From NCBI GenBank assembly GCA_017534115.1, contig JAFWDD010000087.1:1-64000 (forward strand): a stretch of 64,000 nucleotides of DNA, read 5' to 3'. The notes beneath the pieces are model-generated. The model was not told the origin of the DNA. It made no database searches and saw nothing but the letters and a program-made list of their open reading frames with translations. How positions within the stretch are numbered: the first letter of the stretch is position 1; every line of letters starts with the position of its first letter. A program made the translations under genes and the position numbers. Positions 43,905 to 50,540 of this stretch are shown here, piece after piece. The stretch is from Bacillota bacterium (lineage in GTDB: Bacteria > Bacillota > Clostridia > Lachnospirales > Anaerotignaceae).

Positions 43905-43996
43905 AGGGTCGGGGTTTAATTGATCCGCTCCGAGATAAGGGAATAAAAAGAATAATTCTTTTATCTCAGCGCGGAAAACAGCTTTGACCCTGTTTT
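43905..43996 (+). promoter_or_regulatory. Long structured hairpin with T tract between ylmH and lspA
   Basis: Outer helix AGGGTC/GACCCT (43905-43910 with 43986-43991), middle helix TCCGC/GCGGA (43924-43928 with 43971-43975) and inner helix GAGATAA/TTATCTC (43932-43938 with 43961-43967), then TGTTTTT. It is much longer than a simple terminator and may be an attenuator or RNA element controlling lspA. I recognise no riboswitch class. Confidence 0.5.
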
Positions 43997-44043
43997 TGCG
44001 CATCCTAATTTTGGATTATTATAAAGGAATTAAGGTAAAAAAT

Positions 44044-44532
44044 ATGGCGGATAAAATTAGTAAAAAGAAAACAGGCTTCCTTTGGGGACTTTTCTGTCTC
44101 GGCCTTTTTCTCGCGGACAGATTTACAAAATTATATATGCTCAAAAATCTTGAGCCAATTGGGAGCAAGCCTGTTATAGACAGATTTCTGCAGTTCACTT
44201 TCGTTGAGAACAGAGGAGCGGCATTCGGCATCCTTCAGGGAAAAACATGGGTTTTTGTTTTGCTCACAATCGTTATTGGCGCGGCTATAATATATTTCAT
44301 GAGAAAGCTTATTATAAAATCCAAATATCCCGAGATCGTTTTTGCGCTCTGCCTTATTCTGGCGGGAGCGATAGGCAATTTCTACGACAGAATCGCATAT
44401 GGATATGTGGTGGACTTTTTCGACCTTCTCTTTGTGAATTTTGCCATATTTAACGTAGCCGATATATTTGTTGTATGCGGCGCGGTAATTCTTGTGCTTC
44501 TCATACTGTTTGACGTTAAGGAGGATTTTTGA
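44044..44532 (+). CDS. lspA: Lipoprotein signal peptidase II
   Basis: LspA is the membrane aspartic protease that removes signal peptides from prolipoproteins. The 162-aa protein has four membrane helices and conserved boxes FVENRGAAFGIL, GAIGNFYDRIAYGYVVDFF (Asp pair) and FNVADIFVVCG (catalytic Asp). ATG at 44044 follows AAGG within the leader; an upstream frame would include the structured hairpin and is rejected. The stop overlaps the next start as TGATG. Substrates in this window include the proteins at 32.0 and 52.7 kb. Confidence 0.94.
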   Translation: MADKISKKKTGFLWGLFCLGLFLADRFTKLYMLKNLEPIGSKPVIDRFLQFTFVENRGAAFGILQGKTWVFVLLTIVIGAAIIYFMRKLIIKSKYPEIVFALCLILAGAIGNFYDRIAYGYVVDFFDLLFVNFAIFNVADIFVVCGAVILVLLILFDVKEDF

Positions 44533-45449
44533 TGGAAGAAATCTTTTTAACGGCTGAGGAAAAAGACGAAGGCAGAAGAGTGGATGTTTTTGTGGCCGAA
44601 TGTTTGGAGGAAATTTCCAGAAGCAGGGTACAATCCCTCTTGGAGTCCGAAAACATTCTTGTAAACGGAAAAAAGGTAAAATCCAATTATAAACTGAAAA
44701 TTAATGATATGGTCAGCGTTTCCATGCCGCCTCTTTATGAAGCGGAAATTGTGCCTGAAGACATACCTCTGGATATTCTCTATGAGGATGAGCATATAAT
44801 AGTTGTGAACAAACCAAAGGGTATGGTAGTCCATCCTGCTCCGGGACATTTTTCCGGAACCCTTGTGAATGCCCTTATGTATCACTGCAGGGATAACCTT
44901 TCAGGCATAAACGGTGTTCTCCGGCCGGGAATAGTCCACAGAATAGATAAGGATACTTCCGGAATACTTGTGGCGGCAAAAACGGATACAGCCCATAAGG
45001 GCCTTGCGGAGGCTTTGTCAGTCCATGACATAAAGCGTATATATTACGCCATCGTCATGAACAAGGTGAAGGAAGAGGAAGGCACCATAGATAAGCCCAT
45101 AGGAAGGCATAAAACAGACAGAAAGAAAATGGCAGTAGTCCCAAATGGCAGGAATGCCGTAACTCACTACAAGGTTATTGAGTATCTGGGGAAATATACA
45201 TTTATCGAAGCAAGACTTGAGACTGGACGGACCCATCAGATAAGAGTTCATATGGCAAGCATAGGAAATCCTCTTTTGGGTGATGAGGTCTACGGCTCAA
45301 AAAAACAGCCTTTTAACACTGACGGGCAGGTTCTCCATGCGGGAGTTTTGGGATTCATCCATCCCGTAACAGGTGAGTACATGGAGTTCAGCGCGCCGCT
45401 TCCGGAATATTTCCAGAAGGTTTTAAGGATTATAAGAGACAGGATGTAA
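44532..45449 (+). CDS. rluD: RluD-type 23S rRNA pseudouridine synthase
   Basis: The 305-aa protein has an N-terminal S4 domain (about 12-75; GRRVDVFVAECLEEISRSRVQ) and an RluA-type catalytic domain with HRIDKDTSGILVAAK (catalytic Asp) and GRTHQIRVHMASIGNPLLGD. It resembles RluD/YlyB. The ATG at 44532 overlaps the lspA stop, with AAGGAGG at 44518-44524. lspA-rluD followed by pyr genes is the usual Bacillota order. Confidence 0.92.
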   Translation: MEEIFLTAEEKDEGRRVDVFVAECLEEISRSRVQSLLESENILVNGKKVKSNYKLKINDMVSVSMPPLYEAEIVPEDIPLDILYEDEHIIVVNKPKGMVVHPAPGHFSGTLVNALMYHCRDNLSGINGVLRPGIVHRIDKDTSGILVAAKTDTAHKGLAEALSVHDIKRIYYAIVMNKVKEEEGTIDKPIGRHKTDRKKMAVVPNGRNAVTHYKVIEYLGKYTFIEARLETGRTHQIRVHMASIGNPLLGDEVYGSKKQPFNTDGQVLHAGVLGFIHPVTGEYMEFSAPLPEYFQKVLRIIRDRM

Positions 45450-45462
45450 AGGAGGAATAAAC

Positions 45463-46383
45463 TTGATTATAGACAGAAAAGATTTTCTGGAATTGAAGGA
45501 TCTTTCGGCGGAAGAAATTATTTATATATTGAAAACAGCGGAAACAATGAAGTTTGTTCTTTCTCAGAAAGGCAGAAATTCGCCAATGCTAAGAGGCAAA
45601 TCCGTAATCAGTCTTTTTTATGAGACATCGGACAGAGCCCGTCTTGCGTACGAGCTTGCGGCTCAGCATTTAAGCGCCGCGTTCGCGGACATCAACCTTT
45701 CATCCTCAAATGGAAGAGAAACTCTTAAGGATATGGGCATAATGCTTGACCAGATGGGAGCGGACTTTATTATAATCAGGCATTCTCAGGCCGGAGCGGC
45801 AAATATTCTTGCCAAAAACGTAAAGGCTTCCGTAATAAATGCCGGAGACGGATATAATGAGAATCCTGGCCAGACACTTCTTGACCTTATGACTATAAAG
45901 GAGTATAAAAAGGATTTTAAAGGTCTCAAAGTTGCCATAATTGGCGATTTGCTCCACAGCAGGGTAAACAAGGGCAATATCTGGGCGCTTACTAAATTAG
46001 GCTCAGAGGTTGTGATTTCCGGTCCTCCGGCTCTTGTGCCCGAAGAGATAGAAAATTTCGGTGTAAAGGTATATTATAATGCCTGCGATGCCGTAAAAGA
46101 TGCCGACGTTATACTTTCCGGCAGAATAAATGTTGATGATTTGGAAGAAAACGCTCTTCCGTCCATGGAAGAATACAAAAACTTCTTCATGATAGATAAA
46201 GAGCTTTTAAGCTATGCCAAGGAAGATGCCATCGTAATGCATCCCGGACCTATTAAAAGAGGAATCGAGATCTCCTCGGAGGTTATGGACAGTCCGCAAT
46301 GTATTGTAAGCGACCAGCTTTCAAACTCAATTTCCGTGCGGATGGCAATGCTTTATATATTGGCCCAAGGGAGGAAATCCTGA
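45463..46383 (+). CDS. PyrB-like aspartate carbamoyltransferase homolog with altered carbamoyl-phosphate site
   Basis: The 306-aa length and fold match aspartate carbamoyltransferase. Kept motifs are Arg106 (IRHS), LLHSRV, Arg221 and HPGPIKRGIEI. The phosphate-binding signature S-T-R-T-R reads S56-D-R-A-R60, the catalytic HPxQ reads N134-P-G-Q, the 80s-loop Lys segment reads SSSNGRET, and RIQ is RIN. Asp57 would face the phosphate. Normal pyrimidine activity is therefore doubtful, although the frame is intact. TTG at 45463 has AAAGGAGG upstream. It overlaps the pyrC-like gene by one base. No pyrR or other pyr genes are adjacent. Confidence 0.85.
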   Translation: MIIDRKDFLELKDLSAEEIIYILKTAETMKFVLSQKGRNSPMLRGKSVISLFYETSDRARLAYELAAQHLSAAFADINLSSSNGRETLKDMGIMLDQMGADFIIIRHSQAGAANILAKNVKASVINAGDGYNENPGQTLLDLMTIKEYKKDFKGLKVAIIGDLLHSRVNKGNIWALTKLGSEVVISGPPALVPEEIENFGVKVYYNACDAVKDADVILSGRINVDDLEENALPSMEEYKNFFMIDKELLSYAKEDAIVMHPGPIKRGIEISSEVMDSPQCIVSDQLSNSISVRMAMLYILAQGRKS

Positions 46384-47663
46384 TGAAAACACTAATTAAA
46401 AACGGGTACATAGTTTCCGAATACGCGGATATGACTACTTTAATGGACATTCTGTGTGAAGACGGGAAAATAGTAAAAATAGAAAAGGATATAGAGGATC
46501 CCGAAGCTAAAATAATCGACGCCCAGGGAAGATATGTATTTCCGGGATTCATAGATATGCACTGCAGTATGAGCAACCCTGCGGGCAATTATATAGAGAG
46601 CTTCGAAAGCCTTACAAAAGCTGCGGCTAAAGGCGGCTTTTCGACGATTACTCTTCTTCCGTCAACAAATCCTCCTGTGGATAACGACGCTATAGTTGAT
46701 TACATTGTTTCAAAAGGCAAAAGCTATTCCAATATAGGAATTTACCCTTATGGAAGCATGACGGTAGGCTGTGAGGGTAAAGTCCTTGCAAATATCGGAC
46801 ATATGGTTAAAGCGGGAATAGTTGCTCTTTCCGATGGAGACAGAGCCATAGACAAGGCTCAGCTTCTTATGCGCATAATGCAGTATTCCAGGATGTTTGA
46901 TATATGCCTTATAACTCACTGCGAGGAACAGTCTCTTGCCTGTGGCGGAGATATGAACGAAGGAACAATTTCGATCGAGCTTGGATTAAGAGGTATTCCC
47001 GAGGAGGCGGAAACCATTCATGTTTCCAGAAACATACTTCTTGCGGAAGGCACAAAGGCGAAGCTTCATATCTGCCATGTAAGCACCAAAAAAACAGTTG
47101 ACCTTATACGGCAGGCTAAAAAGCGAGGAGTTCAGATAACGGCGGAAACCTGTCCACAGTATTTTTCATTAACGGAAGACGCTGTATTGGGATATAACAC
47201 TTACGCTAAGCTTAATCCTCCTCTCAGAACAAAAGAGGATGTGGACGCGGTCATAGAAGGCCTCTGTGATGGAACAATAGATGTTATTTCATCGGGACAT
47301 TCGCCGGTAAGCGGAGAGGAAAAACGAGTTGAATTCGGAAACGCTTCATTTGGCGTATCTTCTTTAGAGACAGCGGTATCCGTAGTAATAACCGAGCTTT
47401 TACAGAAGCGGAAAATACTAAATCCTATGGAGCTTGCGGAAAAAATGTCCGGAATGCCTGCGAAAATCCTGAAAATAAAATCAAAAGGCAAAATAAAAGT
47501 TGGCTATGACGCGGATTTCACTATTGTTAACTTAAAGGAACAGGTTGTTGTGGACACCAAGAATTTCCGTTCAAAATCCAGGGTAACCCCTTATGCGGAT
47601 ATGTTTTTGAACGGATGTGTGGTCTACACCATTTCAGCCGGCGAGCCGGCGTATAAAAGATAA
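46383..47663 (+). CDS. Dihydroorotase-like protein lacking key zinc and catalytic residues
   Basis: The 426-aa amidohydrolase aligns end to end with class I dihydroorotase. Kept residues are His60, Asp151, His179 (THCEE), His232 (HICHVST) and LNPPLR. The HxH zinc motif is H60-C-S62, the substrate RxPG is SNPAG, and the catalytic DHAPH is G305-H-S-P-V309. Loss of one metal His and of the catalytic Asp predicts no dihydroorotase activity. Inactive PyrC-like subunits that support PyrB are known in Pseudomonas, but there PyrB is normal. ATG at 46383 overlaps the upstream stop; a longer frame inside pyrB is rejected. Confidence 0.85.
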   Translation: MKTLIKNGYIVSEYADMTTLMDILCEDGKIVKIEKDIEDPEAKIIDAQGRYVFPGFIDMHCSMSNPAGNYIESFESLTKAAAKGGFSTITLLPSTNPPVDNDAIVDYIVSKGKSYSNIGIYPYGSMTVGCEGKVLANIGHMVKAGIVALSDGDRAIDKAQLLMRIMQYSRMFDICLITHCEEQSLACGGDMNEGTISIELGLRGIPEEAETIHVSRNILLAEGTKAKLHICHVSTKKTVDLIRQAKKRGVQITAETCPQYFSLTEDAVLGYNTYAKLNPPLRTKEDVDAVIEGLCDGTIDVISSGHSPVSGEEKRVEFGNASFGVSSLETAVSVVITELLQKRKILNPMELAEKMSGMPAKILKIKSKGKIKVGYDADFTIVNLKEQVVVDTKNFRSKSRVTPYADMFLNGCVVYTISAGEPAYKR

Positions 47664-47673: not shown

Positions 47674-47678
47674 CAAAG

Positions 47679-47710
47679 TAAGACGGTGTAAAAACTCGTC
47701 TTATTTTTTT
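47679..47710 (+). terminator. Intrinsic terminator of the lspA-pyrC-like operon
   Basis: TAAGACG (47679-47685) pairs with CGTCTTA (47697-47703), followed by seven T residues. Confidence 0.85.
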
Positions 47711-49145: not shown

Positions 49146-50540
49146 ATGGGTGGATTTTTGAAACGCATATTATCCTGTCTTATAGTAATTCTGATGTTTT
49201 ATGTTTGCCCTGTTTGCGCGGAAAGCAAGGGCGGAGAATTTTATTTGCACGGAGAGGAAAAAATCGAGACATCAAAAGAATTAGGCATAATAACAAAGGA
49301 TATGTATAAAAGAAGGGAAGATAATCTCAACAGAGAAGAGGCAAGCGTAATTCTCTGCAACCTTTATACACATCTTACAGGTAAGAAACCGGGAAAAGCG
49401 GAAATCGTTTTTCGGGATACGGACAAAAAAGAGCCCAGACTGGCTTACAGTCTTGAGCTTATGGACGGACCCAGCGAAACCATATTCGGGCCCAATTCGC
49501 CTGTCACAAAGGAGGAGTTTGCCTGGTATATATTGAAAACCATGAAAGCTTCCGGAATGTATGACGAAAATGTAAAGTCTTATTATGACGGCTTTGCCGA
49601 TAAGGACAGTATATCAGCCGGTTATAATGAAGCTGTTTTCTATCTGGCGGGATATGATATCATAGACAGGTACGAAACCAATTTTGAACCGAAAAAGGCT
49701 GTTACCATAGGCGAAGCGGCTTATATAGCAGTTAAAACCAGTGAATTTTTCTCTCCCAAACCCATCGAGATTAACAAAAAGGAAATCGGCATAGGCACGG
49801 AAAAAGATGTGCTTTTGTCAAAATTCGGCAAACCGGACAAAATCAGCCAGTCTGTGTACGGTTCCGAAAAATATGTTTATTTTCTTGATACGGGATATTT
49901 TTCGGCAAGCTTGGATTCCGAAGATAAAATAGAAGAAATATTTACAAACAGTTCCGATTTTAAATATTATGCTGTGGATTCGGAAACAGATATTTCTGAT
50001 TTCAAATATATGAATTCGGATATAACCTATAAATATACAATGAAGGATAATTATACGTTTACCAATCTGTATTTCGATTCTGTTGACCTGAAGGTTGACG
50101 GGATATATATAAAATCAAATGATATGAAAAACTATGTGCTGAGGATGGACGAGTCCTACAGTCCTATAATAAAAGACGAGCTTACGGACATAATTAACTG
50201 TTCCAGACGCAAATACGGCCTTGCGGATTATGTGCTCAGCCCTCAGGCATCCGGCCTTGAAGACAAGCAGTGCGGATATATGTCCATGAAGGCAATGCTC
50301 ACTCATAATTATGTGGCTAATACGTCTCTTGCAAGAAGGTTTTCCGAAAACGGAATAAACTTCGTGAAGATTTCCCAGAACATAGCCTGCAGTACAGCCG
50401 GAGCGGCGGATATATTTTATTACTGGTCCGGCGTTCCGGGCATGAGAGGAAATATTTATTCTGATGAATACATAAATATGGGAGCAGGGTGCGTAATAAA
50501 TAAGAACCTTATATACTGCGCATATGTTTTCTATTCGTAA
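49146..50540 (+). CDS. Secreted protein with SLH-like region and CAP (SCP/PR1) domain
   Basis: The 464-aa exported protein has a signal peptide (1-25, ending CPVCAES). Next come three SLH-like stretches (about 40-200), a CAP-associated segment (about 205-290, GIGTEKDVLLSKFGKPDKI, GSEKYVYFLDTGYF) and a C-terminal CAP domain (about 340-464). The CAP domain has HNYVANTSLARRF and SQNIACSTAGAADIFYYW, where the usual G-E-N is S-Q-N. The layout resembles YkwD/YtxC-type envelope proteins of spore-formers. No catalytic activity can be assigned. The ATG follows AAGGGGGA. It lies 36 bases after ftsY without a visible terminator, so read-through is possible. Confidence 0.8.
   Translation: MGGFLKRILSCLIVILMFYVCPVCAESKGGEFYLHGEEKIETSKELGIITKDMYKRREDNLNREEASVILCNLYTHLTGKKPGKAEIVFRDTDKKEPRLAYSLELMDGPSETIFGPNSPVTKEEFAWYILKTMKASGMYDENVKSYYDGFADKDSISAGYNEAVFYLAGYDIIDRYETNFEPKKAVTIGEAAYIAVKTSEFFSPKPIEINKKEIGIGTEKDVLLSKFGKPDKISQSVYGSEKYVYFLDTGYFSASLDSEDKIEEIFTNSSDFKYYAVDSETDISDFKYMNSDITYKYTMKDNYTFTNLYFDSVDLKVDGIYIKSNDMKNYVLRMDESYSPIIKDELTDIINCSRRKYGLADYVLSPQASGLEDKQCGYMSMKAMLTHNYVANTSLARRFSENGINFVKISQNIACSTAGAADIFYYWSGVPGMRGNIYSDEYINMGAGCVINKNLIYCAYVFYS

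Follow-up and report, generated by a model that had tools for sequence, protein, structure and literature searches.

A conserved pair of ATCase-like and DHOase-like genes with lost catalytic residues behind lspA-rluD in an order of Clostridia

The stretch of DNA analysed here (the window, 64,000 nucleotides) carries two overlapping genes on its forward strand. The first, at 45463..46383 (+), starts with TTG and encodes PsiPyrB, a putative ATCase-like pseudoenzyme of 306 aa; the second, at 46383..47663 (+), encodes PsiPyrC, a putative DHOase-like pseudoenzyme of 426 aa, and both assignments draw on the ORF call, profile matches and predicted fold. The two genes share one base (TGATG), the final base of the PsiPyrB stop codon being also the first of the PsiPyrC start codon. 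This overlap, mostly in the form ATGA, is kept in most relatives and fits coupled translation of the two proteins, while it is no proof of a product ratio. Upstream lie two conserved neighbours, lspA for signal peptidase II (43984..44532, +) and, immediately before the pair, rluD for a pseudouridine synthase (44529..45449, +); an AGGAGG Shine-Dalgarno sequence for PsiPyrB (45450..45455, +) stands right behind the rluD stop codon. On the other side, ahead of ftsY, the operon ends in a terminator-like hairpin with a U run behind it (47675..47707, +; -13 kcal/mol, z -3.5). Elsewhere in the window we observed genes for tRNA-Gln and tRNA-Gly at its start (89-292) and, downstream of ftsY (49146-50540), a gene for a secreted-looking protein in which SLH-like repeats and a C-terminal CAP/SCP-like region were recognised by eye.

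An earlier note on this DNA had described both genes as full length and placed behind lspA-rluD, and the open reading frames and profile matches bear this out. PsiPyrB is a full-length ATCase match (NF002032, E 1e-93, and TIGR00670, both above cut-off) and PsiPyrC a full-length DHOase match (TIGR00857 above cut-off). PsiPyrB reached only 25-27 bits against the NCBIfam YgeW profile, for which the cut-off is 453-500, indicating no close relationship. AlphaFold monomer models of moderate confidence (pLDDT 78 for PsiPyrB and 80 for PsiPyrC) gave B. subtilis ATCase (3r7l, E 5e-25) as the best Foldseek match of the former and B. anthracis DHOase (4yiw, E 2e-47) as that of the latter, with Aquifex DHOase also among the best. 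Profiles and models agree that PsiPyrB retains the overall fold and length of ATCase and that PsiPyrC retains the overall DHOase fold.

To describe the PsiPyrB active site we used E. coli ATCase numbering and tabulated 30 relatives from the same family as the window. The active-site residues of the E. coli reference sequence fell at the expected numbers; the numbering is also consistent with how the model matches 3r7l, and with entry 1acm, whose title names the critical role of Arg54. In the loop that holds the phosphate of carbamoyl phosphate, SDRAR replaces STRTR (45628..45642, +), with T53 and T55 lost and S52 and R54 kept. The 80s loop (45700..45726, +) is without S80 and K84, residues that reach into the adjoining active site. 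NPGQ replaces HPTQ (45862..45873, +; H134N and T136G), and RIN replaces RxQ (46123..46131, +; Q231 lost, R229 kept). These losses are shared by the family: T53 is gone from all 30 proteins (Ala in 29, Asp in the window), T55 and K84 are each kept in 2/30, and the change of H134 to Asn, the change of T136 to Gly and the loss of Q231 are each found in 30/30. The SxRT motif is broken in the window, which reads SDRA. All 30 proteins retain S52, R54, R105, Q137 and R167, and 29/30 retain R229; the HP[LG]P motif is present, as HPGP in the window, with P266 kept in 30/30. Across a wider set H134 is lost in 66/66 PsiPyrB proteins (Asn in 58/66, Asp in 8/66) and HPxQ does not occur; T53, T55 and K84 are lost in most of the PsiPyrB proteins checked. 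Transcarbamylases as a whole are defined by two carbamoyl-phosphate motifs, SxRT and HPxQ (PMC4581275), and every known transcarbamylase, including those that have acquired a new substrate, retains them (PMC4581275, PMC4016543). Their loss here, together with the retention in most proteins of Arg167 and Arg229 on the aspartate side, lends no support to a new substrate in the usual sense, which the earlier note had raised.

PsiPyrC was examined in the same way, using B. anthracis DHOase numbering and 28 relatives from the window's family. HCSMS replaces HVHLR of the HxHxR motif (46560..46574, +), so that the second metal His and the Arg are lost; most relatives carry CxxC at this place. SDGD replaces TDDG of xDDG (46830..46841, +), turning the metal ligand D151 into Gly, and GHSPV replaces DHAPH (47295..47309, +), removing the catalytic D304 and H308. 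For comparison, the zinc ligands of Aquifex DHOase are His61, His63 and Asp153 (PMC3880350). All 28 family proteins have lost H61, R63 (Cys in 26), D304 (Gly in 27) and H308, and have Gly for D151 (28/28); H59 is retained, and most of the proteins have H178 and H231 as well. In the wider set D151 is lost in 62/62 (Gly in 93%) and the second metal His of HxH in all but one protein (L296). D304 survives only in PsiPyrC of families f21, f22 and f4, so the losses accumulated stepwise. The SDRAR, NPGQ, RIN, HCS and GHSPV changes listed in the earlier note are therefore real by the residue tables; its list was incomplete, omitting K84 in PsiPyrB and both D151 and R63 in PsiPyrC.

The residue tables also indicate that the pair carries fixed residues of its own, beyond mere erosion. 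V60 has become Cys in 96% of PsiPyrC proteins and R63 in 52/62, and CxxC stands in place of HxHxR in 49/61 (for example L038, L264 and L304), with the first Cys present in 59/61. It is possible that the CxxC of most PsiPyrC proteins forms a new metal or redox site. CxxC is missing from 12/61, among them the window protein, which has the first Cys alone (CxxS), so that it can be no universal function of PsiPyrC, and we rejected it as a universal new site.

The earlier note had advised a search of the remaining genome for canonical pyrB and pyrC. The window genome (95% complete) has an intact pyrC-pyrK-pyrD-pyrF-pyrE-pyrB-pyrI operon with canonical motifs on a separate contig (C36), and argF on a third contig; the idea that the pair is the sole pyrB and pyrC of the genome was accordingly rejected. 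In the same family, 46 canonical PyrB proteins keep S52, T53, R54, T55, K84, R105, H134, T136, Q137, R167, R229 and Q231, and 46 canonical PyrC proteins keep H59, H61, R63, D151, H178, H231, D304 and H308, the only gaps in these tables coming from a single PyrB and a single PyrC that are cut off where their contigs stop. H134N, D151G and the loss of H61 are thus fixed in the family (30/30 PsiPyrB, 28/28 PsiPyrC) and occur in 0 of the 46+46 canonical proteins, which rules out chance or assembly error. An intact PyrB, of pyrBC or pyrBI type, was found together with the broken one in 13/14 genomes from eight other families, the 14th genome, where none was detected, being 74% complete. Within the window's family (f1) we observed that two canonical ATCases alternate by genus, encoded either by a pyrB-pyrC adjoining pyrK-pyrD or by a pyrB-pyrI in the pyr operon. 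The change in both proteins is coordinated, as the earlier note proposed, and conserved, and the canonical copies of both genes make the pair redundant. Of the two observations that the note named as speaking against its reading, orthologues with proven activity and a genome with no other pyrB or pyrC, we made neither. On the residues present, neither PsiPyrB nor PsiPyrC would be able to run its textbook reaction.

To examine whether the genes are under selection, a comparison that the earlier note had also proposed, we calculated dN/dS by Nei-Gojobori between related genomes, many of the dS values lying near saturation. PsiPyrB gave 0.00-0.07 in all pairs except the two most distant, and PsiPyrC mostly 0.03-0.11. 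The working paralogues of the same genomes gave 0.015-0.14 (pyrB) and 0.04-0.16 (pyrC), and rluD mostly 0.01-0.13. Pairs with dS <1 agree: G001/G005 gave 0.022 and 0.041 for the pseudo pair versus 0.027 and 0.045 for the working one. Mean identity over 20 shared genomes was likewise 79% and 68% for the dead pair and 81% and 71% for the live pair. These values cover other genera of the family, the window's genus being represented by a single genome whose branch is long for rluD too. In these other genera the pair is under strong purifying selection, about that on the working paralogues, and so is no pseudogene; this and the conservation of the changes led us to reject a recent decay specific to the window genome.

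Using a codon pattern, we found the PsiPyrB gene in 37/58 genomes of the window's family, and in all 20 loci read from this family PsiPyrB follows lspA-rluD with PsiPyrC behind it. A first, too narrow pattern suggested a restriction to the window's family; a wider one, directed at the altered HPTQ region, added eight families, and the restriction was rejected. At least 93/392 sampled genomes of the order, which is probably Lachnospirales, have the pair; they come from nine families and carry it almost always just behind lspA-rluD. With the wider pattern the pair was not detected in family f6 (~130 genomes, counted by hand from the listing). We read 16 loci of a second family (assigned to f12 by coordinates) and 20 of seven further families, and in all of these H134 is Asn or Asp and D151 is lost. 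Wherever a locus was complete, the two genes lay side by side, and the carriers include single-contig genomes (G022, G027, G029, G101, G205 and G279). A class-wide pattern, blind to the EDP variant, gave three matches outside the family, all unrelated proteins. Among named genomes the pair has few relatives: a single-sequence scan of the named-genome collection gave no match, and an alignment scan of it gave, among the matches listed, mostly canonical pyrB. A plasmid search returned only relatives below 60% identity (among the matches listed, <=47%).

In quick trees without bootstrap, the pseudo forms make up one clade of the PyrB tree (37 rows; SH-aLRT 100) and one clade of the PyrC tree (34 rows; SH-aLRT 100), and nearly all families form their own clades in both, f5 being split in the PyrC tree. 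Separate losses family by family were rejected on the ground of this one pseudo clade in each tree. The trees fit a single origin followed by vertical descent with some losses, which would make the pair ancient and order-wide. It is missing from several genera of the window's family, lost in G021 and undetected in f6, and is therefore dispensable. Genus g6 offers a natural deletion: G021 (L288), assembled as a single contig, reads lspA-rluD-ftsY, whereas its congeners keep the pair. In G004 (C8:50801-52065) PsiPyrC is split into two overlapping frames by a recent frameshift or an assembly error.

Gene order in other families points to where the pair came from. The classical Firmicutes pyr locus, in the B. 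subtilis arrangement, reads lspA-rluD-pyrR-pyrP-pyrB-pyrC. Of three loci of families f21/f22, two (L297 and L306) read lspA-rluD-pyrR-uraA-pair, and the third (L308) reads pyrR-uraA-pair with its upstream end beyond the covered sequence; L304 has pyrR alone between rluD and the pair, and L309 a uraA-like permease upstream. RNAs resembling PyrR attenuators stand ahead of pyrR or behind rluD in two f21/f22 loci, L298 and L306, at 48 bits where the gathering score is 54 (E 0.001). Since the lspA-rluD-pyrR-uraA-pair order matches the ancestral Firmicutes locus, the pair would be the original pyrBC decayed in place, and our best reading is that it was broken after other copies took over. The genes that the earlier note described stood up; their order-wide spread, their age and the original pyrR-uraA-pyrB-pyrC locus were missed there. 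In f1, the window's own family, pyrR and uraA do not adjoin the pair, and a search of the window for a PyrR element found none, so that a link to pyrimidines there would come only through ancestry. Further genes were observed near the pair: one between uraA and the pair in L306 (3840-4352) that weakly resembles the C-terminal domain of pyruvate kinase, and dihydroxyacetone-kinase-like genes, recognised by eye, downstream of the pair in the L308 locus of one f22 genome (5739-7394).

The reading that we favour, with a probability of roughly 60%, is that the pair encodes a retained non-catalytic ATCase-DHOase-like complex derived from the original pyrBC, with a regulatory or scaffolding role. The two genes would be the pyrB and pyrC that stood from the start in the lspA-rluD-pyrR-uraA-pyrB-pyrC operon of Firmicutes; their ATCase and DHOase catalysis was presumably lost once, at an early point in the evolution of this order of Clostridia. 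Other pyrB and pyrC copies would have assumed the chemistry while the dead pair stayed under strong purifying selection. In its working form the pair would most likely be a 1:1 assembly without catalysis, on the plan of the class A ATCase-DHOase dodecamer, and its role, regulatory or scaffolding, would be tied to pyrimidine metabolism. One possibility is that the anion pocket of PsiPyrB (S52, R54, R105, Q137, R167 and R229) binds a pathway metabolite without turnover. Class A dodecamers in which dead DHOase subunits act only in assembly do exist (PMC7053772). The CxxC seen in the majority of PsiPyrC proteins counts against the scaffold part of the reading, as it hints at a more specific function. 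A more definite version, which we put forward tentatively, is an all-pseudoenzyme complex serving as a metabolite sensor, through the arginine pocket, or as a metal/redox module, through CxxC, that may control pyrimidine or carbamoyl-phosphate metabolism.

Comparison with known systems places the pair outside each of them. The class A1 ATCase-DHOase dodecamer of Aquifex aeolicus (3d6n/4bjh; PMC3880350) has the same two subunits and a 1:1 gene pair, and both models count its structures among their closest fold matches. The two Aquifex subunits work and have complete SxRT/HPxQ and Zn ligands, whereas in the pair each of these sets is broken and there are canonical copies as well. In class A2, from Pseudomonas (PMC7053772), a DHOase homologue without Zn ligands likewise stands beside an ATCase, but there the ATCase chain is the cell's working enzyme; the pair shares the dead DHOase and falls outside class A2 because its ATCase half is broken as well. 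The pseudo-DHO domain of fungal Ura2 is also a DHOase homologue without Zn ligands kept by an ATCase, one that works. Pseudo-ATCase/ureidoglycine transcarbamylase (UGTCase) resembles PsiPyrB in being a misannotated ATCase paralogue beside a genuine ATCase. Such proteins keep STRT and HPTQ, change RxQ to AIA/GxS/VxP, have an altered HPLP and use a new second substrate (PMC4016543). PsiPyrB is the reverse, with STRT and HPTQ changed and R229 and HPGP in place, and is therefore no pseudo-ATCase of that type; a second-substrate change of the UGTCase kind was rejected, the wrong motifs being altered. The 'knotted' transcarbamylase YgeW, like PsiPyrB, is an ATCase/OTCase relative of unknown role, but it keeps SxRT and HPxQ. 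CRMPs (dihydropyrimidinase-related proteins), an amidohydrolase fold made non-enzymatic and a weaker fold match, offer a conceptual parallel to PsiPyrC, from which they differ in being eukaryotic, derived from dihydropyrimidinase and without an ATCase partner. The canonical Firmicutes lspA-rluD-pyrR-pyrP-pyrB-pyrC operon has the gene order of f21 and f22; its pyrB and pyrC are active, whereas those of the pair appear catalytically broken by their residues, and pyrR and uraA are gone from the f1 locus.

Among the other explanations, the one that survives best, although we think it rather unlikely, is a neofunctionalised enzyme or metal/redox protein whose old sites were rebuilt for another chemistry, the arginine pocket of PsiPyrB taking another anionic substrate, PsiPyrC using CxxC, or both. 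Fixed replacements in place of random decay (at H134, V60, R63 and D151, with more pair-specific residues), CxxC in 49 of the 61 PsiPyrC proteins and the retention of R54, R105, Q137 and R167 are what such rebuilding would leave. However, CxxC is not essential, given CxxS in the window and the 12 proteins that lack it; the carbamoyl-phosphate residues, which all known transcarbamylases have, are gone; most families have lost the amidohydrolase Asp; and the neighbouring genes point to no substrate pathway. Less probable still is a role as assembly or allosteric partner, in which dead subunits would mix with working PyrB or PyrC and tune them, as in Pseudomonas, whose ATCase is stabilised and activated by a dead DHOase subunit (PMC7053772). 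An intact PyrB accompanies the pair in every genome examined in detail, one incomplete genome excepted, but this working partner varies between the pyrBC type and the pyrBI type with a regulatory chain of its own, and related genera with the same canonical genes lack the pair. It is very improbable that the two are a weak ATCase and DHOase with altered yet working active sites: the fold, some substrate residues and D304 in PsiPyrC of three families are intact, but H134, T55 and mostly K84 are lost jointly in PsiPyrB, as are HxH, D151, R63 and H308 in PsiPyrC, and canonical copies are present. Decaying pseudogenes or an assembly artefact, to which the long branch of the window genome with its few extra changes and the split PsiPyrC of G004 might point, have next to no probability and are already refuted for the clade as a whole, given dN/dS mostly of 0.01-0.1, frames open in dozens of genomes, constant lengths (~309 and ~423 aa) and an overlap and position conserved over nine families.

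The favoured reading, a retained non-catalytic complex, adds a paired case to pseudoenzymes that are well known singly, with a dead ATCase and a dead DHOase kept together across nine families. In the open-access papers searched we found no description of a two-gene operon in which both pathway enzymes are dead. Automatic annotation is wrong for the pair, PsiPyrB passing the ATCase equivalog cut-offs and PsiPyrC the pyrC_multi cut-off, and for this reason models of metabolism in gut and environmental Clostridia may include dead genes among the working enzymes. The pair also makes non-catalytic functions of ATCase-DHOase complexes directly testable. Overall, sequences guarded as strictly as those of the working copies point to a non-catalytic job for these two proteins.
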